DNA of 51,873 nucleotides from Flavobacteriales bacterium (GCA_018057455.1 JAGPDT010000018.1:1-51873); one strand, 5' to 3'. Counted from the first letter of the stretch, positions 24,978 through 38,139 are shown. The notes: generated by a model from the sequence alone, not told the origin. Made by a program: numbers and translations.

Positions 24978-26096
24978 CTACATCGCGGGCCCGCCCGGAC
25001 TGTCCTCAACGATCTTCATGGCTCCCTTCAGCGATGTGGTGTCCACCACACCACCCAATACCTGGATGTTCACACCGTCGCTCAGGCCGGTGTGCACGTA
25101 GGTCTTCTTCCACGCCTGCCCGTTGCGCACGTCCACGAATGCGCTGTCGCCCTTGTTGTTGAAGGTGATCACGCTCTCGGGAATGCTCAGCACGCTGTCC
25201 CTGCGGTCCAGCACGATGTCCGCGTTCGCGCTGTACCCTGCCCGCAGCGTCTGTCCTTCCTTTACGGCCACGGCGGCCCGGATCTCGAACTGGATGGCCC
25301 CGTTCTCCTCCACGCCCTTGGGGGCGATGTACTCCAGGTTGGCATCCCAGGTGGCGCTGTCTATGGCCCCCACGGTGATCACCACCGGCATGCCGATGCG
25401 CACCTTGCCCACTTCGCTTTCGTCCACCTTGCCCTTGAAGATCAGGTCGTTCATGTCGGCCACGGTGGCGATGGTGGTGCCTTCGTTGAAGTTGTTCCGC
25501 TCGATCACGCTGCTGCCCACCTTCACCGGCACGTCCAGCACCATGCCTTCAATGGTGCTTCGCACGATGGTGTTGGTGGCGTTGCCGCTGCTTCTGCTGA
25601 TGCCGTCGCGCACCAGCTGCAAGGCGTCCTGTGCGGCATCCTGTTCCTGCTTGGCGTTGCGCAGGGCGATGTCGAAGGTCTGCATCTCGCTGGCGGAGAT
25701 CACGCCTTTGTCGGCCAGGGGTTTGTTGCGGTCGAAGTTCATCTTGGCATTGGCCAAGGCGATGCCGGCACTGTTCACCCGGCTTTCCGCCTGGTTCAAT
25801 GAGAGCATGTCGGGCACGATCTGGATGGTGGCCAGCTTGTCGCCCTTCTGCACCTTCTGGCCCGCCTCCACGAAGAGTTCGCGGATCACACCGCTCACCA
25901 CGGGCTTGATGTCGATCTCCTGCCGTGGCTCAATGGTGCCATTGGCCACGGTCTTCTTCACAATGGTGCTCTTGCGGGGCTTCACCACCTCGTATTCGGG
26001 GGCTTTGGTGGCGTTTTTCTGGTACAGGAACCAGAGTGTCCAGATGAACAGGACGGCGAGCAGGACGAGGATGACGTACTTGAGGATGCGTTTCAT
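24978..26096 (-). CDS. Membrane fusion protein of a MacAB-type efflux system
   Basis: The 372-residue protein has an N-terminal transmembrane anchor (residues 6-25) and the periplasmic adaptor layout. A lipoyl-like half (GVIRELFVEAGQKVQKGDKLATI), a coiled-coil hairpin (about 95-170), the second lipoyl half (STIEGMVLDVPVKVGSSV) and beta-barrel segments (IFKGKVDESEVGKVRIGM) follow in order. MacA-like proteins connect an inner-membrane ABC transporter to an outer-membrane channel for export of peptides, lipids or siderophores. Here the gene follows two MacB-like permeases; no TolC-type channel is in the window. Substrate unknown. Confidence 0.92.
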   Translation of the reverse strand: MKRILKYVILVLLAVLFIWTLWFLYQKNATKAPEYEVVKPRKSTIVKKTVANGTIEPRQEIDIKPVVSGVIRELFVEAGQKVQKGDKLATIQIVPDMLSLNQAESRVNSAGIALANAKMNFDRNKPLADKGVISASEMQTFDIALRNAKQEQDAAQDALQLVRDGISRSSGNATNTIVRSTIEGMVLDVPVKVGSSVIERNNFNEGTTIATVADMNDLIFKGKVDESEVGKVRIGMPVVITVGAIDSATWDANLEYIAPKGVEENGAIQFEIRAAVAVKEGQTLRAGYSANADIVLDRRDSVLSIPESVITFNNKGDSAFVDVRNGQAWKKTYVHTGLSDGVNIQVLGGVVDTTSLKGAMKIVEDSPGGPAM

Positions 26097-26131
26097 GCGG
26101 TTTCCGGTTCTTTCGTCAGGTTCTTACTGGG

Positions 26132-27376
26132 CTATTCGGCGCGCAAGGCGTCCACGGGTTTGATGTTGAGGGCCCGCCGGGCGGGGACCCAGCCGGCCAC
26201 CAGCCCGCTGGCGATGAGCACGGCCAAGGCGATCAGCGCCACGTTCAGGCTCACTTCGGGGTTCTTGAAGAAGCCCGATTCGATCTGCATGCCGTCGATC
26301 AACTGCAAGGTGCCCACACCGGCCACCAGCCCGAAGTAGCCCGCCACGAACGTGAGGGTCATGGCCTCCAGCATGATCTGCCCGGTGATGTTGCCGGGCC
26401 GTGCGCCGATGCTGCGGCGGATGCCGATCTCCTTGGTCCGTTCCTTCACGATCACCAGCATGATGTTGCTGATGCCGATCACCCCGGCGATGAGGGTGAG
26501 GGTGCCCACGAACCAGCTCAGCGCCATGATGGCCTCGAAGAGCATGTTCATCTGCTGGTACATCTCTTCCATGTTGAACCCGCCGAAGGCCAACGGGTCG
26601 TTGGGGTCCACCTTGTGGCGTTTGGAGAGCATGCGTTTCACGCGTTCCTGCACCTGCGAGGCGGGTACCCCCGGCTTGGCGCTCACGCTGAACCAGTGCA
26701 CCATGTTCAGGCTGTTGAAGGCCTTTTGGAACGTGGTGAACGGGATGTAGATGGTGCTGGCCTCCCCATCATCGCCCATGGCGCTGGCCTTGGGTTCGTA
26801 ACTGCCCACCACTTGGAAGTACACGCCTTGTATGCGTATGTATTTCCCCAGCGGTTCTTCCGCACCGAAGAGGGTCTTCACCACCTCCGGGCCCAGTACG
26901 CATACTTTCCGTTCGTCCCGGATGTCCTTTTGGTTGAGGAAGCGGCCCCTGTCCAGGGTAACGGACTGGAAGTGCAGCACGGCGGGCATGTCCCCGTTCA
27001 CGCTGAAGCCGCCGTTCTTGTCCTTGTAGCTTACGTTGTTGGCGCCCATGTAGCCGCCCAGTTGCAGCCGTGGCGCCACTTGGTCCACGCCGTCAACGGC
27101 TTTGATGGCGGCGATGTCGCCGTTGTCGAAATCGAAGCTGCGGCCGCGTTTGAACCCCGCATAGGGCAGGGAAGTGCTCTGGGTCCAAATGAAGAAGCTG
27201 TTGGTGGCCCAGCCACTGAAGCCGCCCATGACGCCGTTGCTCAGGCCCTTGCCCATGCCCAGCATGATCACCAGCATGAAGATGCCCCAGAACACGCCGA
27301 ACATGGTGAGCCCGCTGCGCAGCTTGTTGCGGCTCAGGGTGATCCAGATCTCGTTCCAGCGCTCCTTGTCAAACAT
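26132..27376 (-). CDS. MacB-like ABC transporter permease (second copy)
   Basis: The 414-residue permease has an N-terminal transmembrane helix after RNKLRSGLTMFGVFWGIFML, a periplasmic MacB-type domain (about residues 60-270), and the C-terminal FtsX domain with three helices. The FtsX domain includes the conserved VKERTKEIGIRRSIGARPGNI. It ends with ARRALNIKPVDALRAE, the usual FtsX-permease tail. It is paralogous to the gene upstream, and the two may form a heterodimer served by the single ATPase. It is transcribed with them, after a 116-base spacer holding a hairpin. Confidence 0.92.
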   Translation of the reverse strand: MFDKERWNEIWITLSRNKLRSGLTMFGVFWGIFMLVIMLGMGKGLSNGVMGGFSGWATNSFFIWTQSTSLPYAGFKRGRSFDFDNGDIAAIKAVDGVDQVAPRLQLGGYMGANNVSYKDKNGGFSVNGDMPAVLHFQSVTLDRGRFLNQKDIRDERKVCVLGPEVVKTLFGAEEPLGKYIRIQGVYFQVVGSYEPKASAMGDDGEASTIYIPFTTFQKAFNSLNMVHWFSVSAKPGVPASQVQERVKRMLSKRHKVDPNDPLAFGGFNMEEMYQQMNMLFEAIMALSWFVGTLTLIAGVIGISNIMLVIVKERTKEIGIRRSIGARPGNITGQIMLEAMTLTFVAGYFGLVAGVGTLQLIDGMQIESGFFKNPEVSLNVALIALAVLIASGLVAGWVPARRALNIKPVDALRAE

Positions 27377-27421
27377 GGGGGGTTAGTTGACAATGGCCGT
27401 GTGAAGTTGGGCATAAGCAGA

Positions 27422-27462
27422 TGGCAGCGTGCGGTGGGCGTGCTGCCCGCTGCACGCTGCCA
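27422..27462. repeat. Hairpin between the two permease genes
   Basis: Arms TGGCAGCGTGC (27422-27432) and GCACGCTGCCA (27452-27462) enclose a further GGGC/GCCC pair. The structure is inside an operon, so it may modulate read-through or mRNA stability, or be a dispersed element. Confidence 0.5.
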
Positions 27463-27492
27463 CCTGCCGACTACGGTATTTGAGACCCATGC

Positions 27493-28737
27493 TCATTCGT
27501 CCCGCAGCGCTTCAATGGGCCTGATGGCGGCCGCCTTCCGCGCGGGGATCAGCCCGGCCAGCGCGCCGGCCACCACCAGCACGCCGGTGGCGGTGAGGGC
27601 CGTCCCCAGGTCCACGGTGGGGTTTCGGAACATCTCACTGCCCGGCACCTTGGAGGCGATCACTTCCAGGAGGCCAACACCGCAGATCAGGCCGCAGTAG
27701 CCCGCCACGGCGCTTGCGAAGATGGCTTCCATGATCACCTGGCCCACCACGTTGGCGGGGGTGGCCCCCAAGGCCTTGCGGATGCCGATCTCCTTGGTGC
27801 GCTCCTTCACGACGATCAGCATGATGTTGCTCACGCCCACGATGCCCGCCACGATGGTGCCGATGCCGATGATCCACAGGAAAGCGTTGATGCCGCCGAA
27901 GATCTGCCCGAAGAGCATGGCGTTCTTCACGTGGTTGTTCACATAGATTGCCCGCTCGTCCGTGGGGTCGAACCGGTGGCGGGCGGCCAAGACCGACTTG
28001 GTGCGCTGCTCCGCCTGTTCCGATCCCGCGATGGACCCATCGATGAAGCTGAAGGTGATCTTGTCCACGTTCTGCTTTTCGTTGAACACGCGCTGCACCA
28101 CGGTCAGTGGGATGAACACCTGGCTGTTCTGGTTCATGCCGCGGCCCCCGCTCTCGAACCGGTACACGCCCACCACCTGGAACGGGATGTTGTTCACTTG
28201 CACCCATTGGTCGATGGGGTCTTCGCCCTTGAAGAGGGCATCGCGCGAGTCCTCGGCCAGCACGATCACTTTGCGCGTGCGGTCAAGGTCCAGCTGGTTG
28301 ATGAACCGCCCCTGCAGGATCTGCTGGTGCTGGAGTTCGGTGAAGTCGGGCGTTACCCCGCTGATGGTGAAGTTGCCGTATTGCTTGCCCCGGCTCAGCT
28401 GGCTGTTGCCCCGCCACACGCGCAAGTTGCCGGTGATGTGCCGCAGGCCGGGGATCGCCGTGCGCAGCGCCTCCACGTCGCGGATGTCCAGCTGGATGTC
28501 GCGGTCAGCGGCCAGGCCCTGCCAGGGTTTGCTGGTCTGCCCGCCCCAGATATCGATGGTGTTCTTGGCCGTGTTGCGGAAGTTGTAGCTGAAGCCGTTG
28601 CTCAGGCCCTGGCCTGAACCCAGGAGCAGGATGAGCATGAAGATGCCCCAGAACACGCTGAAGCCGGTGAGCACCGTCCGCAATTTGTTCTTGCCGATGG
28701 TGTCGAAGATCTCCGCCCACTTTTCAGCGTCGAACAT
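27493..28737 (-). CDS. MacB-like ABC transporter permease (first copy)
   Basis: The 414-residue protein has the same layout as its downstream paralogue: an N-terminal helix in LTGFSVFWGIFMLILLLGSG, a periplasmic MacB-type domain with QLDLDRTRKVIVLAEDSRDA, and a C-terminal FtsX domain containing VKERTKEIGIRKALGATPANV and the tail ARKAAAIRPIEALRDE. I chose the ATG at 28737; the only upstream alternative is TTG at 28749. The start overlaps the ATPase gene end by 14 bases, so translation is coupled. Confidence 0.92.
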   Translation of the reverse strand: MFDAEKWAEIFDTIGKNKLRTVLTGFSVFWGIFMLILLLGSGQGLSNGFSYNFRNTAKNTIDIWGGQTSKPWQGLAADRDIQLDIRDVEALRTAIPGLRHITGNLRVWRGNSQLSRGKQYGNFTISGVTPDFTELQHQQILQGRFINQLDLDRTRKVIVLAEDSRDALFKGEDPIDQWVQVNNIPFQVVGVYRFESGGRGMNQNSQVFIPLTVVQRVFNEKQNVDKITFSFIDGSIAGSEQAEQRTKSVLAARHRFDPTDERAIYVNNHVKNAMLFGQIFGGINAFLWIIGIGTIVAGIVGVSNIMLIVVKERTKEIGIRKALGATPANVVGQVIMEAIFASAVAGYCGLICGVGLLEVIASKVPGSEMFRNPTVDLGTALTATGVLVVAGALAGLIPARKAAAIRPIEALRDE

Positions 28738-29431
28738 GCGCGGGCTCAACTATCGGTTCTCCGTCGTGGCTCTCGATCTCCCCGTCCTTCAACCGGATGA
28801 TGCGCTGGGTCATGGCCGCCACTTCCGGTTCGTGCGTCACGATCACCAGCGTCATGCCCAGGTCGCGGTTCACGCCTTTGAGCAGGTCCATCACCTCATG
28901 GCTGGTGCTGCTGTCCAGGGCGCCGGTGGGTTCGTCGGCCAGGATCATCTTCGGCTTGGCGATCAGTGCGCGGGCGATGGCCACCCGTTGTTTCTGCCCG
29001 CCGCTCATTTCATTGGGCATGTGCCGCGCCCAATCGCGCAGGCCGACATGGCCCAGCATCTCCGCGGCCATTTCGTTGCGTTTGCGGCCGCTGATGCCTT
29101 GGTAGTACAGCGGTAGCGCCACGTTCTCCATGGCGTTCTTGAAGGAGATCAGGTTGAAGCTCTGGAACACGAACCCGATGTACTTGCTGCGCAGCTCCGC
29201 AGCCCGTGTTTCCGTCAGGCCTTTCATCGGCAGTCCGTCAAGCAGGTATTCCCCGCTGTCCGCATGGTCCAACAATCCGATGATGTTGAGCAAGGTGCTC
29301 TTGCCTGAACCGGAAGAACCCATGATGCTCACCATCTCCCCATGCCGGATGTGCAGGTCGAGGCCCTTGAGCACGTGGAGGACGTTGTCCCCCATGCGGT
29401 AGGCCTTGCGGATGTTCTTCAGTCTGATCAT
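28724..29431 (-). CDS. ABC transporter ATP-binding protein, MacB/LolD type
   Basis: The 235-residue ATPase has a Walker A motif GSSGSGKST (residues 38-46), Q-loop in FVFQSFNL (near 90), signature MSGGQKQR (142-149), Walker B MILADEPTGALD (162-173) and H-loop VTHEPEVA (198-205). It drives the two adjacent permeases. The true start is the ATG at 29431; the frame is open far upstream, but that part is antisense to the divergent DUF4476 gene. A TACTTTCG box lies 13 bases before the start. It is the first gene of the six-gene minus-strand unit ending with the DUF4159 gene. Confidence 0.95.
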   Translation of the reverse strand: MIRLKNIRKAYRMGDNVLHVLKGLDLHIRHGEMVSIMGSSGSGKSTLLNIIGLLDHADSGEYLLDGLPMKGLTETRAAELRSKYIGFVFQSFNLISFKNAMENVALPLYYQGISGRKRNEMAAEMLGHVGLRDWARHMPNEMSGGQKQRVAIARALIAKPKMILADEPTGALDSSTSHEVMDLLKGVNRDLGMTLVIVTHEPEVAAMTQRIIRLKDGEIESHDGEPIVEPAHVRR

Positions 29432-29444
29432 GGGCGCGGTGGCA

Positions 29445-29608: not shown

Positions 29609-29636
29609 TTGCCCGTTGATGCCCACGTTACATTCG
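29609..29636 (+). promoter_or_regulatory. Promoter for the DUF4476-lipoprotein gene set
   Basis: A TTG at 29609-29611, 17 bases of spacing and TACATTCG at 29629-29636 form a good Bacteroidota-type promoter, 23 bases before the ATG at 29660. Confidence 0.55.
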
Positions 29637-29659: not shown

Positions 29660-30604
29660 ATGGAACGCCTCGCCTCCCTCGTGCTCGCAGCAGGTCTGTC
29701 CATGGCCGGGGTGTTCGCCCAAAGCCGCGACCTCATCATCTACTCCGAAGCGGGGGAGAAGTTCACCTTGGTGGTGGACGGCCATACAAAGAACGCGCAA
29801 CCTGCGGAGCGTGTCGTGGCCAGGGGCATCCGCAATGAAACACCCCTGCTGATGGTGCGGTTTGCCCATGCCGGCACGCCTGTGATCCAGCAGAACAGCT
29901 GGCTGGAGGCCGGCAAGGAGTATACCCTGCGGATCACCACCGACCGGCAAGGTGGGCGGGTGTTGCGCATGCAGGGTGCAGCCACTTTGGCGCCCGTGCC
30001 GGTTGCTTCTACCACCCCGCGCACCGGGGGGCATCCAGCGGGTGGTACCGCTACACATGGCGCAGCGGCACCAACTGGTTCCGATAAACAGGCCAAGGCA
30101 GGGTCGTCCATTGCCGACAAGCACATGGGCCACAACAAGCAACGCAAGGAACCCACCAGGGCACCGGTGGCCGGCGAAGCCCGCGCCGGTGATCCGGTAC
30201 AGGGCGGCTCCGCACCCTTTGGGACCGCGCCCGCCCCAGCATCGGTCCGGCATGCCTTGGCGAGCCCCCCGGTAAGCAACGTTGCCCCCCCCCCGGCCAC
30301 GGGTCCCGGTTGTGGTACGCCGATGCCAGCCGAGGATTTCGACGCCTTCTTGGCCGGTATCCAGACCAAGGGTGCCGAAGCGGCCAAGCTCATGGTGGCC
30401 AAGCAGATCGGCCAGAGCCATTGCCTTTCCACGGCCCAAGTGAAAGCCGTCCTGGGCCTGTTCGATTTCGAGGACAGCAAACTGGACTTCGCCAAATTCG
30501 CCCTTGACCACGTGACCGATCGCAGCGACTATTCCACGGTAAGTGCGTTGTTCCGTTTTTCAAGCTCCATGGAGGAGTTCAATGCGTACCTGCAGAGCCG
30601 TTGA
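29660..30604 (+). CDS. DUF4476 domain protein, exported
   Basis: The 314-residue protein has a signal peptide (MERLASLVLAAGLSMAGVFA) and a beta-rich N-terminal part with a repeated-strand pattern (IYSEAGEKFTLVVDG, AGTPVIQQNSWLEAG). A low-complexity Pro/Ala/Gly/Thr linker follows (about 105-220). The C-terminal helical DUF4476 domain (about 225-310) contains CGTPMPAEDFDAFLAGI, KLMVAKQIGQSHCLSTAQ and FDFEDSKLDFAKFALDHV. DUF4476 proteins are widespread in Bacteroidota without a known role. It starts a plus-strand set with three lipoproteins, 31 bases before the CsgG-like gene. The ATG at 29660 opens the signal peptide. Confidence 0.85.
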   Translation: MERLASLVLAAGLSMAGVFAQSRDLIIYSEAGEKFTLVVDGHTKNAQPAERVVARGIRNETPLLMVRFAHAGTPVIQQNSWLEAGKEYTLRITTDRQGGRVLRMQGAATLAPVPVASTTPRTGGHPAGGTATHGAAAPTGSDKQAKAGSSIADKHMGHNKQRKEPTRAPVAGEARAGDPVQGGSAPFGTAPAPASVRHALASPPVSNVAPPPATGPGCGTPMPAEDFDAFLAGIQTKGAEAAKLMVAKQIGQSHCLSTAQVKAVLGLFDFEDSKLDFAKFALDHVTDRSDYSTVSALFRFSSSMEEFNAYLQSR

Positions 30605-30635
30605 AGTGATCGATTCCCCTTTCTCAACCCACCAG

Positions 30636-32015
30636 ATGAGTCCACGTTTCCTTTCCATCGCAGCCACCGCGATCATTCTTGGAACCAGCTGCACAGGGTC
30701 GAAACCTTTGGCGAAGAAGGCCGCCAAATTGGACGGGAGCGGCATGTACGCGGAAGCCGCCGACCTCTACCTGCAAAGTGCCATGCGCAACCCGCGGAAT
30801 GTGGATGCCAAGATCGGGCTGAGGAGAACCGGGCAGATGCTGCTCAACGACAAGCTCAGTTCGTTCTTCAAGGCCTTCACCATGGGTGAAGACAAGGAAG
30901 CGGCCGTGAACGCCTTCCTCACCGCCAAGGACTACCAGGACCTGGTGCAGCGCGCAGGCGTTTCATTGGAAGTGCCCGAGAACTACAGCAACGATTTCAA
31001 GCAGGTGAAGGGCGAGTACCTGGTGCAACTCTATACCCGGGGCCAGGAGTTGTTGGACCGCAAGGAATACAACGCCGCGGAGGCCACCTTCGCGAAGATC
31101 GGCAAGCTGGAGCCCGGCTACAAGGATGCCACCAGCCTGCAGGACGTGGCGTTCCTGGAACCGTTGTACCTCGCCGGGAAAGCGGCGTTGGAAGCCGGGC
31201 AATACCGCAAAGCTTACGCGGACCTTGCCCGCGTGACCGAACGCAACGGGCAATACAAGGATGCCACCTCGCTCAAGCAGCGCTGTGTGGAAAAGGGACG
31301 CTATCCCATCGCCGTCATGCCCTTCAGTTCCACCGGTGGCGCGTCCAAAGCACAGGCCCTCACCATGCAGGCCTATGTCACGGCGGCACTCACCGAACTC
31401 AATGATCCATTCATCAGCGTGGTGGACCGGGACAACATCCAGAAGATCCTGGATGAGCAGAAGCTGGGCATGAGCGGTGTGGTGGATGAGGCTTCCGCCG
31501 TGAGCGCCGGTAAGCTCATGGGTGCCCAAGCCGTGCTCATGGGCACCGTGATCGCCTTCCAGGAAATCCCTGGCCGCACCCAACGCAGCTCCAAGGAAGG
31601 GTACGAAGCGTACCAAGTGAAGGAGCTCAATGCCGAGACGAACCAATACGTGTATGTCACCCGCTACCGGCCGGCGCATTACACCGAACTGGCCTTGATG
31701 AACAGGGCACAACTCTCCATCAGCTACAAACTGGTGTCCTTGGAGACCGGCCAAGTCCTGCTCAGCAAGGTGCTGGAGCGCGAAGCCTCCGACCAGGCCC
31801 GGTACGCCAGCTATGAAGGCAATGCCCAAGCACTGTACCCCAAACTCAACGGCAACGTGGACACCCGGAGCAGTGCGCGCCGTGAGCTGGCCGCCTTGTT
31901 GGGCGCAACCCATGAGGTGAAGCCCACAGCCGTACTGGCCAACGAGCTGGTGCGCTCCAGTTCAGCCCTGCTGGCCAGCGGCATATCCAAGGAACTTATG
32001 GAAAGGCTTCCATGA
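30636..32015 (+). CDS. CsgG-like lipoprotein
   Basis: The 459-residue lipoprotein has the signal MSPRFLSIAATAIILGTSC with lipid-attachment Cys19. TPR-like helical repeats follow (AEAADLYLQSAMRNP, ELLDRKEYNAAEATFAKI, AGKAALEAGQYRKAYADL). The C-terminal half is a CsgG-type domain: IAVMPFSSTGG, AYVTAALTEL, ISVVDRDNIQKILDEQKLG and AGKLMGAQAVLMGTVIAF. CsgG proteins form outer-membrane or periplasmic ring complexes for secretion; the TPR fusion is common in Bacteroidota. It overlaps the next gene by four bases (ATGA). The partner protein and secreted cargo are unknown. Confidence 0.88.
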   Translation: MSPRFLSIAATAIILGTSCTGSKPLAKKAAKLDGSGMYAEAADLYLQSAMRNPRNVDAKIGLRRTGQMLLNDKLSSFFKAFTMGEDKEAAVNAFLTAKDYQDLVQRAGVSLEVPENYSNDFKQVKGEYLVQLYTRGQELLDRKEYNAAEATFAKIGKLEPGYKDATSLQDVAFLEPLYLAGKAALEAGQYRKAYADLARVTERNGQYKDATSLKQRCVEKGRYPIAVMPFSSTGGASKAQALTMQAYVTAALTELNDPFISVVDRDNIQKILDEQKLGMSGVVDEASAVSAGKLMGAQAVLMGTVIAFQEIPGRTQRSSKEGYEAYQVKELNAETNQYVYVTRYRPAHYTELALMNRAQLSISYKLVSLETGQVLLSKVLEREASDQARYASYEGNAQALYPKLNGNVDTRSSARRELAALLGATHEVKPTAVLANELVRSSSALLASGISKELMERLP

Positions 32016-33448
32016 TGGGCAACCTGTTCGATCCGGCGCCGTACGGTCTGTTCCGCACATGGCCGGGCTACCTGCTGATCATGGCCATGGCCTGCTTGCC
32101 GGCGTGCAAGGCCCGGCAAGCTGCCGCACCCGTGGAAGTCCCGGTCACTAGGGAACCGCCCAAACCTGATTGGGTCACTGCAAGGCCGGTGAGCAGCGCG
32201 GCTTACACCGGTATCGGACTGGCCTCCAAAAGCCGGCCGGACTATCAGGAAACAGCCAAGAAGAACGCGCTGAACGACCTTGCCAGTGAGATCAGCGTAA
32301 GGGTGGAAGGCAACAGCCTGCTCCATACCCTGGACCGCAAGTACAAGTTCGATGAAGAGTTTACCAGCACCATCCGCACCAGCACACAGGAACGGCTGGA
32401 AGGCTACGAGCTGGTGGATACCTATGAGAATGCGGACGAGTACTGGACCTACTATCGCCTGGGCAAGGAGGAGCATGCGCGGATCAAGGCCGAACGAAAG
32501 CGGCAAGCGATCGAGCAGGCCACGGACCTGTACCAACGGGCTGTCTCCGCGTTGGCCACTGGCGACCTGCGTACCGCCTTCGATCTGGACCTCCGGGCAT
32601 TGGTGGCCATGAAGGACTATTGGGGCGAGAACGACCAGGTAGTGGTCGCTGGGCGCACTGTGCCCTTGGCCAATGAGCTGTTCAACGACCTGCAGCACAT
32701 GGCCGGTGGCGTGCGCTTGGCGGCCTTGCCCGAACGCTGTGCGCTGGACTGGTCCAACCATTTCCGGCGCGAGCTGCTCATCACCGCCACCTTTGCCGAC
32801 GGCGGCCGGTCCCTGCCCCAGTTGCCCATCACCATCCGCTTCCCAGGTGCGGCAGGCAGGGTGGTGGAAAGCAGGAATACCGATGCCGAAGGACGAGCCC
32901 GCACCACCATCCAGCGGGTGGACCTGCAAGCACCTGCGCTGGAAGTGGTCGTCGCATTGGACATCGAGGCCTTGGTGAGCAAAGAGCTCGACCCTGCCTT
33001 TACCGCACCGTTGCTCGGCAGCCTCACCGTGCCCGAAGTGCACGTGCCCATTGACCGCATCATGCCCAAGGTGTATTTCAAAGGCACTGAGAACAACCTG
33101 GGCCAGGCCATGGGCGGCGCACCGCTCGCGTTGGCCATGAAGGAGGAACTGACGGCAAGAGGGTTCCGGACCGTGGAGCGGGCCGCTGATGCCGACTTGG
33201 TCGTGGACCTGGAGGCGGACACGCGGACCGTGGGCGAGAGCAACGGGTTCCACACCGTGGTGCTGCACCAAACACTGAAGGTCACCGATCGGCGTACCGG
33301 GGAAACGGTGCATGAGGCCGGCAAGCAGGACGTGAAGGGCATCCAACTGGATTTTTCCAAGGCCGGCCTGGACGCCTACAAGAAAGCGGCATTGGATGTA
33401 CGCACCCAACTGGTGCCCGCCCTGCTCAACACGCTTTTCCAAAGGTGA
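32012..33448 (+). CDS. LPP20-like lipoprotein
   Basis: The 478-residue protein has a lipoprotein signal ending in LPAC (Cys32). The segment PDWVTARPVSSAAYTGIG followed by TAKKNALNDLASEISVRVEG is the LPP20/FlgP-like signature in which a small alpha-beta domain follows the lipid anchor. After it come an Ig-like or beta-sandwich region (about 250-330) and a C-terminal alpha-beta domain beginning near MPKVYFKGTENNLGQ with RRTGETVHEAGKQDVKG. A start at 32015 is also possible. It overlaps the CsgG-like gene by four bases and precedes another small LPP20-like lipoprotein. Confidence 0.8.
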   Translation: MMGNLFDPAPYGLFRTWPGYLLIMAMACLPACKARQAAAPVEVPVTREPPKPDWVTARPVSSAAYTGIGLASKSRPDYQETAKKNALNDLASEISVRVEGNSLLHTLDRKYKFDEEFTSTIRTSTQERLEGYELVDTYENADEYWTYYRLGKEEHARIKAERKRQAIEQATDLYQRAVSALATGDLRTAFDLDLRALVAMKDYWGENDQVVVAGRTVPLANELFNDLQHMAGGVRLAALPERCALDWSNHFRRELLITATFADGGRSLPQLPITIRFPGAAGRVVESRNTDAEGRARTTIQRVDLQAPALEVVVALDIEALVSKELDPAFTAPLLGSLTVPEVHVPIDRIMPKVYFKGTENNLGQAMGGAPLALAMKEELTARGFRTVERAADADLVVDLEADTRTVGESNGFHTVVLHQTLKVTDRRTGETVHEAGKQDVKGIQLDFSKAGLDAYKKAALDVRTQLVPALLNTLFQR

Positions 33449-33516
33449 CGGGCCCTGGATACTTTGGCACGGCATTGGAACATCACACCATCAACCAGCG
33501 CAAACTCAAACACCAG

Positions 33517-34116
33517 ATGAACATGGCAAGCACTACATCAAAATTGGCATCGGCAGCCCTTATGGCCTTGATGCTCGCAGGCGGAATGAGCGCCTGTAAA
33601 AGCAAGAAGAAAGCAGCGGAGGCCGCCGCACCTCCCAGCGGTGAGACCGAAGTGAAGGTGCTGTGCTCAGGGCCGGAGTTCTTCACCGATGACAAGAACT
33701 TCCGGGCCAACAACCTCGGCGAAAGCATGGACCAGGCCACGGCCAAGAAGAAGGCACTCTCCAACGCACGGGCGGACATGGCCAGTGCCATCAACACGCA
33801 GGTCAAGGCGGTGATCGACAATTACGTGAACAGCCGCGAAATGAACAACAAGGAGGAAGTGGCCGAGCGCTATGAGAGCCTCGCCCGTGAAGTGGTCGAC
33901 CAAAAGCTCACCGGAACGCGCACCATCTGCGAAAAGCTCATGAAGGTGGAAGCTACCGGCAACTACAAGTGTTACGTGGCCATCGAGCTCAGCGCACAGG
34001 ACCTGCTGGCCGCTTACAACGAGCGCCTCAGCAAGGATGACAAGCTGAAGATCGACTACGACTACGAGAAGTTCAAGGAGACTTTCGACAAGGAAATGGA
34101 GAAGCTCGGCAAATAG
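33517..34116 (+). CDS. Small LPP20-like lipoprotein
   Basis: The 199-residue protein has a lipoprotein signal ending in GGMSAC (Cys27) and a Lys/Ala-rich linker. An LPP20-type domain follows, with RANNLGESMDQATAKKKALS and ARADMASAINTQVKAVIDNY, then Glu-rich helices and a basic C-terminus. It echoes the N-terminal domain of the preceding protein, so the operon seems to carry two versions of this fold. I chose the ATG at 33517 rather than GTG at 33445, because it gives the compact signal peptide; an ATG at 33523 is also possible. A strong terminator hairpin follows. Confidence 0.8.
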   Translation: MNMASTTSKLASAALMALMLAGGMSACKSKKKAAEAAAPPSGETEVKVLCSGPEFFTDDKNFRANNLGESMDQATAKKKALSNARADMASAINTQVKAVIDNYVNSREMNNKEEVAERYESLAREVVDQKLTGTRTICEKLMKVEATGNYKCYVAIELSAQDLLAAYNERLSKDDKLKIDYDYEKFKETFDKEMEKLGK

Positions 34117-34137: not shown

Positions 34138-34168
34138 AGGCCCCGACTGCCAAGTGCAGTCGGGGCCT
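34138..34168. terminator. Terminator hairpin between convergent genes
   Basis: A perfect 13-bp stem (AGGCCCCGACTGC and its complement) with a 5-base CAAGT loop is followed on the plus strand by CTTGGTT. It sits 21 bases after the lipoprotein gene and six bases before the minus-strand lytic transglycosylase stop, so it probably serves both. Confidence 0.8.
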
Positions 34169-34174
34169 CTTGGT

Positions 34175-35617
34175 TCAATGCTCCTGGGCCAGGGCCGCAC
34201 TTCCCCGTGCAGCCGGTTGGGGCTTGCCGCTTACCCAGCCATAGACACCCAGGACATCGCGTACATACCAGTAGGTGTCCTGGCCGCGGCAATAGCCGTT
34301 GCGGGCCGCCTGCCCGGTGAAATAGCGGGGCCTGTTCAGCAACACGATCGCGCGTTCCACGTGGCCGTCCCACCGATCGGGGTCCAAGCCCAGTTCCACG
34401 GCCAGGCGCTGGGCATCCTTCACATGGCCCGGGCCGGCATTGTACGAGGCCAGCACGAATTTCAGCCGCTGCCCGGTGGCCTTGATGCGGCTTCGCCAGA
34501 TCCCGTCCAAACGCGCCAGGTAGCGTGTAGCCCCTTGGATGTGCTCATTCACACCGCTGCCTTCAGGCACGCCCATGAACGCAGCCGTCTTGGGCATCAG
34601 CTGCATCAAGCCTTGCGCGCCCATGTACGACCGGGCCGTGGTGTCGAAGCTGGACTCCTTGTAGGCCACCGCGGCCAGGAGTTTCCAGTCCCAAGCCGAG
34701 CTGTCCGCGTGCGCTTGAAAAAGACTGTCGAACCGGGAAATGCTGTCCGTGCCGTAGGCCCATGCCCCTTTGGGCTGGCGGGCGCCACGGGTATCAAGTC
34801 CGTTGTTGTATGCGGCAAGCAAGGCATTGCGTTCTTCCTGATGGCCAGCGGAGGCGAGCCATGTATCCATGGCATGCAGGAGATGGGTGGCATTGGAGCG
34901 GACGGCAAAAGCCAATGGAACCTGATCGCCTTGCAAACGGACGAATTGGACCAAGGGAAGCCGCTTGGCCTCCAGGGTGGCCGTGGCGTCGCTGACCAGC
35001 AGGGGTTGCTTGCCGCCCAGGGCCGTGGCCATCAGCAAATCGTCCGGGATCGAATCCGCAATACGGAAGCGTACCGCGCTATCCCCAAACGAAATTCGCT
35101 GAAGGCTGTCCAGGAACGGTGACCATGAGCTCATGAGGATGGCATCCTGCGGGGCGGTATGTTCCTTGGGCCGGTCACCGGTCCGCATCAGGGCCAAGCC
35201 CGGCGCAATATGGCGATAGGGCCGGGTGAACCCCACGTACGGCGCTGCCCAGCCATGCGCCGATAGCTGGGCCGCGATCACATCGCCCTCACCCATCTGC
35301 AACATGAGCAACATGGTGTCCTGGTCGGTTACCCGGATGGCCTTGATGGCCAGTTTGTGCCTTCGCGCGAACCGTTCCAGCAGTTCCCATTCCAGGCCGG
35401 TGGTGGCTTTGGGCCGCGGTTCCCACGTCAATGGGTCCGGCAGCACGAGCACCCGCAGCGTATCGTGCTTGATCTGCTCCAAGTCGCGCCGTACATGCGG
35501 GCGGGCCCATGGGGCTTCTTCCGGCAAATTGCCGGCAACACCGCCCGGTCCTTCCACCAGCGGTAAGGCCAGCATGGCCGTGAAAAGGCCGGTGCCGATG
35601 AATTCCGCCTTACGCAT
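34175..35617 (-). CDS. MltF-like membrane-bound lytic transglycosylase
   Basis: The 480-residue protein has an N-terminal hydrophobic signal (IGTGLFTAMLALPL) without a lipobox, a solute-binding-like domain (about 50-265) and a lytic transglycosylase (SLT) domain (about 305-430). The catalytic Glu321 lies in AVAYKESSFDTTA, followed by GAQGLMQLMP and ASYNAGPGHVKDAQ. MltF-type enzymes cleave the glycan strand of peptidoglycan, with the substrate-binding module modulating activity. I chose the ATG at 35617; the gene overlaps the ACP phosphodiesterase-like gene by eight bases. Export and catalysis fit a periplasmic cell-wall role. Confidence 0.88.
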   Translation of the reverse strand: MRKAEFIGTGLFTAMLALPLVEGPGGVAGNLPEEAPWARPHVRRDLEQIKHDTLRVLVLPDPLTWEPRPKATTGLEWELLERFARRHKLAIKAIRVTDQDTMLLMLQMGEGDVIAAQLSAHGWAAPYVGFTRPYRHIAPGLALMRTGDRPKEHTAPQDAILMSSWSPFLDSLQRISFGDSAVRFRIADSIPDDLLMATALGGKQPLLVSDATATLEAKRLPLVQFVRLQGDQVPLAFAVRSNATHLLHAMDTWLASAGHQEERNALLAAYNNGLDTRGARQPKGAWAYGTDSISRFDSLFQAHADSSAWDWKLLAAVAYKESSFDTTARSYMGAQGLMQLMPKTAAFMGVPEGSGVNEHIQGATRYLARLDGIWRSRIKATGQRLKFVLASYNAGPGHVKDAQRLAVELGLDPDRWDGHVERAIVLLNRPRYFTGQAARNGYCRGQDTYWYVRDVLGVYGWVSGKPQPAARGSAALAQEH

Positions 35618-36188
35618 GGCCGTGGTCCAAGTGGTTGCGCAGGTCTTCCAGGAAAAGCAGGCATTCCTGCTCATAGGCGGATCGATGGGCCGAAAGCACA
35701 ACCTCGGCACCGCGTAGAACGCCTCCGCCCGGCACTCGGTCGGCCAAGCCGCCCAAGGCGCGGGCAAGGCCATCCAGCCGGGCGTAGGAACCGAGCCAAT
35801 CGTTGGCGACCATGTAGGGCAACATGTGCCGGGTCCGGGCGGGCATCAGGTGGCTGTGGGCCTTCAAAAGATCATACATGCGCTGCGCGAATTCCGGCAG
35901 GGGCTCTGCGCTCAATTGCCCCCAGTTGCGCGCGATGGCATGGTCATAGAACAGGTCCAAGGCCACACCGGCGTACTTGCCGCAATGCGCCCTTATCCGC
36001 TCCCTGCCTGCCAGGGTCAGCGGGTGGTCATCTGTGAAGGTATCGATGCGCCGATGCATGCGGATGCCTGTTTGCAACCCCGGCGACCAAGCGGAAAGGT
36101 CCCGGCCCTTCACCGCATCGGCCATGAAATTGCCGACGATCACCAAGGGGTCGTTGCCCGATACGAGAAGATGGCCCAAAAAGTTCAT
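35610..36188 (-). CDS. Acyl carrier protein phosphodiesterase-like protein (AcpH family)
   Basis: The 192-residue protein begins MNFLGHLLVSGNDPLVIVGN, a typical AcpH/YajB start, and carries GNFMADAVKGRDLS, IRMHRRIDTFTDDHP and LDLFYDHAIARNW. These segments place conserved His and Asp residues expected for metal binding. The family removes phosphopantetheine from holo-ACP or is a related HD-like phosphodiesterase. An ATG at 36188 was chosen because upstream residues are unconserved. A TACCTTTC box (one mismatch) lies nine bases upstream. It is the first gene of a two-gene unit with the transglycosylase, although the two roles are not obviously linked. Confidence 0.85.
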   Translation of the reverse strand: MNFLGHLLVSGNDPLVIVGNFMADAVKGRDLSAWSPGLQTGIRMHRRIDTFTDDHPLTLAGRERIRAHCGKYAGVALDLFYDHAIARNWGQLSAEPLPEFAQRMYDLLKAHSHLMPARTRHMLPYMVANDWLGSYARLDGLARALGGLADRVPGGGVLRGAEVVLSAHRSAYEQECLLFLEDLRNHLDHGHA

Positions 36189-36340
36189 CCGCGACCGGAA
36201 AGGTAGGCCGACCGGCCTTCCTCTGCTGTCCACCCCGGCCCGTTGCGGGCCGAATGCACCGAATGGCCAACCATCGCCCCATGCATCCGGCCATGGATCA
36301 TCCACCGGTCATTTGTGGCGCCCCGGGTAATTTGGCGGCC

Positions 36341-37432
36341 ATGGCCACGGCACGCTCCCGCATGGTGCTCTACTGGGTCACCCAAGTGGTGGCCTGGACC
36401 GGCTATATGCTGCTGCTTGGCCTGCCTACCTTGTTGGAAGGTGGCCATGTACCCCGTTTTGGGTGGGTCACCTTGGCCATGGTATGCATCGGCCTTGCGG
36501 GCAGCCATGCCCTGCGGACTTGTTTCAAGGACCTCCGCTGGTTGGACCTGCCGCTGGGTGCCTTGGTACTACGCATGGTACTGGGTGCCGTGGCGTTGGG
36601 CGTATTGGCGGGCCTGTTGCAAGCGGCCGTTCACGACGCCGTTTTTCCTGAAGCGGAAGGCTTGATCGGCGGCGGCGGGCGCCGGTTGGCGGAAGTGTTG
36701 CTCAGTTGGGTGGTGCAACTCTTCGTATGGTCCATAGCCTATGTGGCCTACCACTACATTGTGCGCAGCCGGCTGGAAATGTTGCGCGCCTTGCGCCTGG
36801 AGGCCGCCAACCGCGAGGGCCAATTGGCCAACTTGCGCAGCCAGTTGAACCCGCATTTCATGTTCAACGCGCTCAACAGCATCCGCGCGCTCATCGATGA
36901 GGACCCCGACCGGGCCAAACGATCGATCACGCTACTGAGCTCACTGCTGCGCAATGCCATGTCCACGGTGAAACGAAGGACCGTCCCCTTGGGTGAAGAA
37001 GTGGATACGGTGCGTACCTATCTTTCCCTGGAGGCCATGCGGTATGAAGAGCGGTTGCGCGTACGTTTTGAGATCGATCCCCTGCTCGAACGCAGTCCGG
37101 TGCCCCCCATGATGTTGCAGACCTTGGTGGAAAATGCCGTGCGGCATGGCATTGCCCGCAGCAAGCAGGGGGGTGAGATCCGGGTGGAGGCCGTGCCCAC
37201 CGAGGCAGGCATGCGCCTGACCGTGCGCAACACCGGGCGGTTCGAGGAGCGGTCGTCCCGCGAACTGGGCCTGGGCTTGCGCAACACCAGGGAACGCTTG
37301 TACCACCTGTATGCCGGCAAGGCCACCTTGGACATGCGCAACGACGGCAACATGGTGGTCTGTGAACTCTTCCTGCCCCATGCACCGGCCCTGATCGACC
37401 GCGAACTGCAAGAACAACCAGCACAACCATGA
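36341..37432 (+). CDS. LytS-type sensor histidine kinase
   Basis: The 363-residue protein has four or so N-terminal transmembrane helices (about residues 8-140) and then a His-kinase domain of the LytS/YehU type. The phospho-acceptor His172 sits in SQLNPHFMFNALNSI. The ATPase part includes LQTLVENAVRHGI and a Gly-rich segment GLGLRNTRERLYHLY. Stimulus is unknown; no extracellular sensor domain is visible beyond short loops. The start is uncertain: an ATG at 36254 is also in frame. It overlaps the response regulator gene by four bases. Confidence 0.92.
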   Translation: MATARSRMVLYWVTQVVAWTGYMLLLGLPTLLEGGHVPRFGWVTLAMVCIGLAGSHALRTCFKDLRWLDLPLGALVLRMVLGAVALGVLAGLLQAAVHDAVFPEAEGLIGGGGRRLAEVLLSWVVQLFVWSIAYVAYHYIVRSRLEMLRALRLEAANREGQLANLRSQLNPHFMFNALNSIRALIDEDPDRAKRSITLLSSLLRNAMSTVKRRTVPLGEEVDTVRTYLSLEAMRYEERLRVRFEIDPLLERSPVPPMMLQTLVENAVRHGIARSKQGGEIRVEAVPTEAGMRLTVRNTGRFEERSSRELGLGLRNTRERLYHLYAGKATLDMRNDGNMVVCELFLPHAPALIDRELQEQPAQP

Positions 37433-38139
37433 AAGCACTGATCGTAGACGATGAACGGTTGGCCCGCAAGGAATTGATGCGCCTGTTGGAAGCCCACGGC
37501 ACAATCGAAGTGGTGGGCGAGGCCACCAATGCGGATGAAGCCGAGAAGCTCACCACCGAGCTCAAGCCGGACCTGCTCTTCCTGGACATCAACATGCCGG
37601 GAAGGGATGGCTTCGAGTTGCTCGAAGCGCTGGACCCCGCGCCGCACGTGATCTTCATCACTGCCTATGACGAACACGCGGTGAAGGCCTTTGAGGTCAA
37701 TGCCTTGGACTATCTGCTCAAGCCCATCGACCCGGAGCGGCTCTCGGCGGCCTTGGCCCGGTTGGCCGCGCTGCCCAAACCAGGCGATGCTGAACGGGGC
37801 CTGCTCACCACGACGGACCGCATCTTCATCAAGGACGGTGAGAAATGCTGGTTTGTGGCCATGAAGGATGTGCGTTTGCTGGAAAGCGAAGGAAATTATG
37901 TGCGGGTGCGGTTCGGTGAGAACAAACCGCTGGTGCTCCGGTCGCTCAACAGCTTGGAGAAGAAGCTGGACCCGCACGTCTTCTTCCGGGCCAACCGCAA
38001 ACAGATGATCAATTTGGCCTGGGTGGCCAAGATTGAACCGTGGTTCAGCGGAGGGCTCAATTGCACGCTCACAACGGGGGAAGTAGTGGAAGTGAGCCGC
38101 AGGCAGGCCTTGCGGTTCAGGGAGATCATGAGCCTCTAG
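37429..38139 (+). CDS. LytTR-family response regulator
   Basis: The 236-residue protein has an N-terminal receiver domain (1-115) with the phospho-acceptor Asp53 in LFLDINMPGRDGFELL and a conserved Lys in LLKPID. A C-terminal LytTR DNA-binding domain (about 130-236) carries SEGNYVRV, RSLNSLEKKLD, FFRANRKQMINL and the tail VEVSRRQALRFRE. LytTR regulators bind short direct repeats upstream of target genes. The partner kinase is directly upstream. A large secreted adhesin-like gene follows 108 bases downstream and is a candidate target. Confidence 0.93.
   Translation: MKALIVDDERLARKELMRLLEAHGTIEVVGEATNADEAEKLTTELKPDLLFLDINMPGRDGFELLEALDPAPHVIFITAYDEHAVKAFEVNALDYLLKPIDPERLSAALARLAALPKPGDAERGLLTTTDRIFIKDGEKCWFVAMKDVRLLESEGNYVRVRFGENKPLVLRSLNSLEKKLDPHVFFRANRKQMINLAWVAKIEPWFSGGLNCTLTTGEVVEVSRRQALRFREIMSL

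Follow-up and report, generated by a model that had tools for sequence, protein, structure and literature searches.

The window analysed here is a stretch of 51,873 nucleotides on contig C2 of the 3.3-Mb draft genome of a Flavobacteriales bacterium, whose near relatives are uncultured Flavobacteriales. It contains a group of four genes, all on the plus strand and separated, according to their reading frames, by a 31-base gap, a 4-base overlap and a 68-base gap (Table 1). Positions and spacing are exactly those reported in a first-pass annotation, made from the sequence alone, which had described the group as an envelope set composed of a DUF4476 protein, a CsgG-like lipoprotein and two LPP20-like lipoproteins, a large and a small one. 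The lipobox-like cysteines of genes 2, 3 and 4 are invariant across the alignments.

Table 1. Features identified at the four-gene locus (positions counted from the first base of the window).
Feature	Position	Strand	Evidence
Promoter-like sequence TTG-N17-TACATTCG, Bacteroidota type, directly 5' of gene 1	29609-29636	+	Direct reading and pattern scan; weak
Gene 1: secreted, DUF4476	29660-30604	+	Pfam, E = 4.7e-16
Gene 2: lipoprotein (Cys19), TPR-type repeats and CsgG/FlgT_M/PelC-like domain	30636-32015	+	Pfam CsgG, E = 2.5e-13; AlphaFold2
Gene 3: large LPP20 lipoprotein (Cys32)	32012-33448	+	Pfam LPP20, E = 1e-12; AlphaFold2
Gene 4: small LPP20-like lipoprotein (Cys27)	33517-34116	+	Pfam LPP20, E = 0.005; profile-profile comparison
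Terminator-like 13-bp hairpin, shared with the converging neighbour	34138-34168	.	Whole fold -34.1 kcal/mol, z = -4.4
MltF-type lytic transglycosylase (solute-binding and SLT domains), converging neighbour	34175-35773	-	Pfam SLT, E = 4.1e-19; SBP_bac_3, E = 5.4e-7

A single promoter for the four genes, as initially proposed, is plausible on sequence grounds: a motif of the Bacteroidota type is present, but the promoter scan detected no E. coli-type (sigma-70) site upstream of gene 1, and counterparts of the motif are patchy in the relatives searched with the same pattern. Where the first-pass annotation placed a strong terminator, at the end of the set, there is a terminator-like hairpin with a weak U tail, located between two converging genes.

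The converging MltF-type gene was considered as a further member of the set and rejected, its position being kept in seven near relatives only. Downstream of it, at 36254-38139, a LytS/LytTR-type histidine kinase and its response regulator overlap by four bases. Upstream of the set, on the minus strand (24978-29437), lies a MacAB-like exporter, composed of an HlyD-type fusion protein, two MacB-type permeases and an ABC ATPase, which is kept in near relatives.

Most domain assignments were supported by Pfam searches, with scores above the cut-offs for DUF4476 in gene 1 (PF14771, 59.3 bits against 22.5), CsgG in gene 2 (PF03783, 50.3 against 20.8) and LPP20 in gene 3 (PF02169, 48.7 against 25.9). 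Gene 4 alone, in contrast, scores 17.7 bits, under the LPP20 cut-off; profile-profile comparison, however, connects it to the gene 3 family (E = 1e-7) and to small LPP20 proteins from a different class, family f44 (E = 6e-11), one of which reaches 35.7 bits with LPP20. These sequence comparisons support the classification of gene 4 as an LPP20 relative. When PDB sequences were searched with profiles, genes 2 and 4 yielded no informative match, and gene 3 retrieved only HP1454, of the LPP20 family (E = 0.04).

The product of gene 1 comprises a signal peptide, a conserved N-terminal part, a proline-rich linker and the C-terminal DUF4476 domain. The gene evolves fast, with 44-54% identity and dN of 0.38-0.52 in comparisons with near relatives. 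Although its place in the gene order is kept in its own family (f1) and in f29, it accompanies the set in these two families only: its inclusion in the set stands within this range, while its role as a core component was rejected, since it falls outside the widely conserved part. The DUF4476 protein would be a lineage-specific periplasmic accessory.

Structures of genes 2 and 3 were modelled with AlphaFold2, using 34-36 family members as input. In the gene 2 model (pLDDT 89), helical TPR-type repeats (residues 22-221) precede a CsgG/FlgT_M/PelC-like domain (222-459). The best structural match of the latter is FlgT (3w1e; Z 15.6, 147 residues, 3.1 A), followed by the Vibrio LPHT ring (8z5n; Z 15.3) and the PelC dodecamer (5t11; Z 15.0), values within 1 of each other being regarded as tied; CsgG comes below FlgT and PelC, with Z 13.3 at 7.2 A. 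In many genomes of the same genus a second TPR-CsgG-like paralogue was observed, with about 30% identity and a match ending near residue 315 (G010:C1:883178-884107, G017:C31:5656-6570 and G025:C1:3821798-3822721, among others); none was found in the genome of the window.

The gene 3 model (pLDDT 85) features an LPP20/SHS2 domain (50-164), helices, an Ig/macroglobulin-like domain (232-350) and a CsgG/PelC/TolB-N-like domain (350-478). Its LPP20-like domain resembles H. pylori Lpp20 (5ok8; Z 10.6, 98 residues), and its C-terminal domain resembles CsgG (Z 11.4) and PelC (Z 10.7). Residues 100-132 form an insert that follows the SHS2 helix and precedes the second strand; it is disordered in the monomer model (block pLDDT 33-60). 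Cys32 is invariant in 15 sequences. Unrelated folds, which the first-pass annotation had named as one outcome that would speak against it, were not encountered in these two models, gene 2 being FlgT-like and gene 3 combining Lpp20 with a CsgG/PelC-like domain. Elsewhere in the phylum (L125:6086-7996), LPP20 was observed as a fusion with ARPP-1.

No other gene of the set is nearly as constrained as gene 4: in near relatives its dN is 0.03-0.08, while genes 2 and 3 reach 0.14-0.31 (the range for gene 2 leaves out locus L038) at broadly similar synonymous divergence.

Conservation of the gene order beyond close relatives was the other point on which the initial reading had been made to depend, and it was found for genes 2-4. 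Within the genus, the order DUF4476, CsgG-like, large LPP20 is kept in the examined loci, with the small LPP20 gene next wherever the contig is long enough; all four genes in the same order were found in one other family, f29. Genes 2-4 occur together in at least six families of the Flavobacteriia class, sometimes rearranged: besides f1 and f29, the order CsgG-like, large LPP20, small LPP20 is found in f79 and f92, the small LPP20 gene comes first in f84, and in f5 (G428) the CsgG-like and large LPP20 genes face the small one in a divergent arrangement. Partial arrangements feature adjacent small and large LPP20 genes (f10; large before small in f14) or a CsgG-like and large LPP20 pair unlinked from the small gene (f11). 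Pfam matches to CsgG and LPP20 are adjacent in 4 of the 15 genomes containing both, with a probability by chance of about 2e-6. The order kept in the sampled genomes of the genus that hold the region, together with the recurrence of genes 2-4 in several other families, indicates that the clustering is not due to chance, and the survival of adjacency through rearrangement argues for a joint function of these three genes.

Gene 4, present in 32 of the 149 genomes sampled from the class, is also found alone (f23, f75, f90 and f99); from these cases and from the unlinked copy in f11, it follows that it can act without the others. A solitary paralogue is located in the same genome as the window (contig C27, 6628-7140), and similar ones were observed in other families (L128 and L129). 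No relative of gene 4 was found in viral contigs, and only two plasmid records contain one, from a Bacteroides and a Phocaeicola, so that nothing points to an origin from mobile elements.

Outside the class, related genes are found next to genes for peptidoglycan enzymes. In f44 (L138-L140) an operon encodes LpoB, a 440-aa lipoprotein, an LPP20 protein, a small LPP20 protein and MltC, and f36 (L145) has LpoB, a lipoprotein and LPP20. Profile comparison connects the f44 operon to the set through both the small (E = 6e-11) and the large (E = 1.9e-8) LPP20 proteins; the similarity of the helical part of gene 2 to the 440-aa lipoprotein (E = 8e-5, probability 61%) is only suggestive of a relationship. 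In locus L122, from another member of the phylum, the order is MltC, large LPP20, PrsW, small LPP20-like, LPP20. MltC was found in 13 of 296 genomes of the phylum, all of them among the 39 with LPP20, and in 5 of the 13 both are in one locus; these counts ignore kinship, and the genomes with MltC belong to f42, f44, f51 and f71 only. Bacteroides finegoldii has an LpoB/CsgG/FlgT_C-like gene followed by DUF6175, LPP20 and a small LPP20 gene, the last sharing 51% identity with gene 4 where the two align. DUF6175 recurs directly 5' of LPP20 genes, in Bacteroides (L148:699-1964) and in f51 (L126:6830-8113), and may replace part of the set. Within the genus of the window, the sole link with a peptidoglycan enzyme is the MltF-type neighbour, on the opposite strand, of near relatives.

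We propose, with moderate confidence, that genes 2-4 encode a periplasm-facing scaffold complex of outer-membrane lipoproteins, which couples the outer membrane to peptidoglycan enzymes; complex formation, periplasmic orientation, ring geometry and the role in peptidoglycan are what we infer from the evidence above. The three lipoproteins, assumed to face the periplasm, would be assembled in one structure, perhaps a ring. Gene 4 would provide the abundant and possibly polymerising subunit, forming a ring, disk or belt as FlgP does, while genes 2 and 3 would pack via their CsgG/PelC/FlgT_M-type domains, a kind of domain known from several proteins to assemble into rings. Partners, most likely peptidoglycan enzymes, would be recruited by the TPR repeats and by the loops. 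Such a complex would link outer membrane and cell wall and position or regulate peptidoglycan synthases and lytic transglycosylases, in the way an H-ring anchors a flagellum, but without the flagellum. The uncharacterised outer-membrane complex with two LPP20 copies envisaged at first is thus retained as a lipoprotein set containing two LPP20 proteins and kept beyond close relatives, but not as an export ring.

Among other explanations, the set could be a peptidoglycan-synthase activator complex, where gene 2 plays the role of LpoB, stimulating a class A penicillin-binding protein, and the LPP20 proteins serve as positioning lipoproteins. LpoB does hold the corresponding slot in the f44 and f36 operons, its fold matches gene 2 (Z 9.9), and the f79 homologue of gene 2 exceeds the LpoB cut-off with 33.9 bits. 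Gene 2 itself, however, stays below it (PF13036, 13.5 bits against 22.3), its profile comparison with the f44 LpoB is weak, and folds of the LpoB type also occur in proteins with other roles; we judge this explanation unlikely.

A less probable one is that the three lipoproteins share a general role in outer-membrane maintenance without forming a single complex, their clustering reflecting co-regulation. The frequently solitary occurrence of gene 4, including the paralogue on contig C27, agrees with this; the adjacency that survives rearrangement in several families favours, instead, a joint function.

The reading of gene 2 as a CsgG-type export pore, with the LPP20 proteins as accessory ring and a secreted cargo, comes close to the export ring of the first-pass annotation, and we consider it improbable. 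It is suggested by the Pfam score of gene 2, by the presence of CsgG structures among its fold matches and by a long beta-hairpin in its model. However, gene 2 covers columns 6-160 of the 210 of the CsgG profile at 50 bits, whereas curli-type CsgG proteins of the phylum exceed 200 bits over the whole profile, and FlgT and PelC outscore CsgG in the structural comparison. Across the genus both faces of its hairpin (316-356) are polar, with mean hydropathy from -1.8 to -1.1, while the strands of curli-type CsgG, at their generally accepted hairpin positions, have one apolar face, above +0.3. Since the hairpin lacks a lipid-facing side and no match to CsgF (PF10614) was found in the genome, an export pore is unlikely. 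Cargo genes, which the first-pass annotation had suggested looking for in other genomes, were not seen; the recurrent neighbours elsewhere are peptidoglycan genes (LpoB, MltC). Because relatives keep the set beside genes for cell-wall enzymes, a scaffold between outer membrane and cell wall is more probable than an export pore.

The type IX secretion and gliding machine includes lipoproteins that form rings, and the genome contains GldL, but the idea that the set is an accessory of this machine, serving as its anchor at the outer membrane, is very improbable and its link to type IX secretion was rejected: GldL is present in all 14 tested genomes, seven with and seven without gene 4, and no gld or por gene was recognised beside any examined locus.

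If the scaffold is taken one step further, non-flagellar Bacteroidota would build an outer-membrane ring, disk or belt from the near-invariant small LPP20 protein and FlgT_M-like lipoproteins, a cousin, possibly ancestral, of the H-ring and basal disk that scaffolds cell-wall enzymes. We advance this only tentatively, as a possibility on the unlikely side. If true, the parts of H-rings and basal disks would belong to a general outer-membrane scaffold kit extending beyond flagella, which bears on the origin of these rings. The set is, in any case, a candidate complex for outer membrane-cell wall coupling in Bacteroidota, and the LPP20 pair is present in gut Bacteroides. Within our incomplete coverage of the literature, we found no paper treating the Bacteroidota set.

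The set was compared with the closest known systems. With the CsgG curli exporter it shares a lipoprotein recognised by the CsgG model and the fold, but gene 2 lacks the apolar membrane hairpins, the end of the profile and a CsgF partner, and has an extra TPR domain. PelC is a lipoprotein that forms a ring at the periplasmic face of the outer membrane, and its fold recurs in the CsgG-like domains of both gene 2 and gene 3; unlike PelC, the set has extra domains, and no Pel genes were seen nearby. LpoB, the penicillin-binding protein activator, has a related fold and in other classes is encoded at the corresponding position, but gene 2 is under the LpoB cut-off.

The Campylobacter basal disk is formed by FlgP, which has the SHS2/LPP20 fold and whose ring-forming beta-hairpin is inserted after the SHS2 helix, ahead of the second strand (PMC12222027). 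The insert of gene 3 occupies the same position in the same fold, but contains no ordered hairpin in the monomer model, and there is no flagellar motor as in the FlgP/FlgQ basal disk.

In the Helicobacter/Campylobacter group, H. pylori HP1457 and HP1456 are, respectively, an LpoB homologue and Lpp20, and the TPR lipoprotein HP0018 co-purifies with MltD and AmiA; its deletion causes hypervesiculation, and in several Helicobacter its homologue adjoins that of LpoB (PMC11394524), findings in favour of the proposed scaffold. A deletion mutant of Lpp20 does not differ from the wild type in flagellation, motility or bacitracin resistance (PMC11756786), which speaks against it. In C. jejuni one operon, cj0089-cj0091, encodes three lipoproteins (PMC3100323). 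This group (HP1454, HP1456, HP1457, HP0018 and cj0089-cj0091) resembles the set in having LPP20 lipoproteins, an LpoB homologue and a TPR lipoprotein, HP0018, with an envelope phenotype and a link to a lytic transglycosylase. Its genes, however, are partly scattered, whereas gene 2 unites TPR and CsgG/LpoB-like parts and gene 3 has extra domains.

The Vibrio H-ring is composed of FlgO, FlgP and FlgT (PMC7990780), and the likeness to these proteins noted in the first-pass annotation is confirmed by the best match of the C-terminal half of gene 2 and by the architecture of gene 3. Common traits are a CsgG/TolB-like domain (FlgT_M being the best match of gene 2), the SHS2/LPP20 fold and outer-membrane lipoproteins; gene 3 has both parts of the FlgT-type architecture, SHS2/LPP20-like and CsgG-like, with the Ig domain between them, by fold and not by FlgT Pfam models. 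In contrast, the ring of the set is putative, gene 2 adds TPR repeats and gene 3 an Ig domain. The genome, moreover, has no match to FlgI (PF02119), the flagellar P-ring protein, and so shows no sign of a flagellum, in accordance with the earlier remark that flagellar genes are absent. In our best reading, the set has its relatives among the Lpp20-LpoB lipoproteins of Helicobacter/Campylobacter and in the Vibrio H-ring toolkit.
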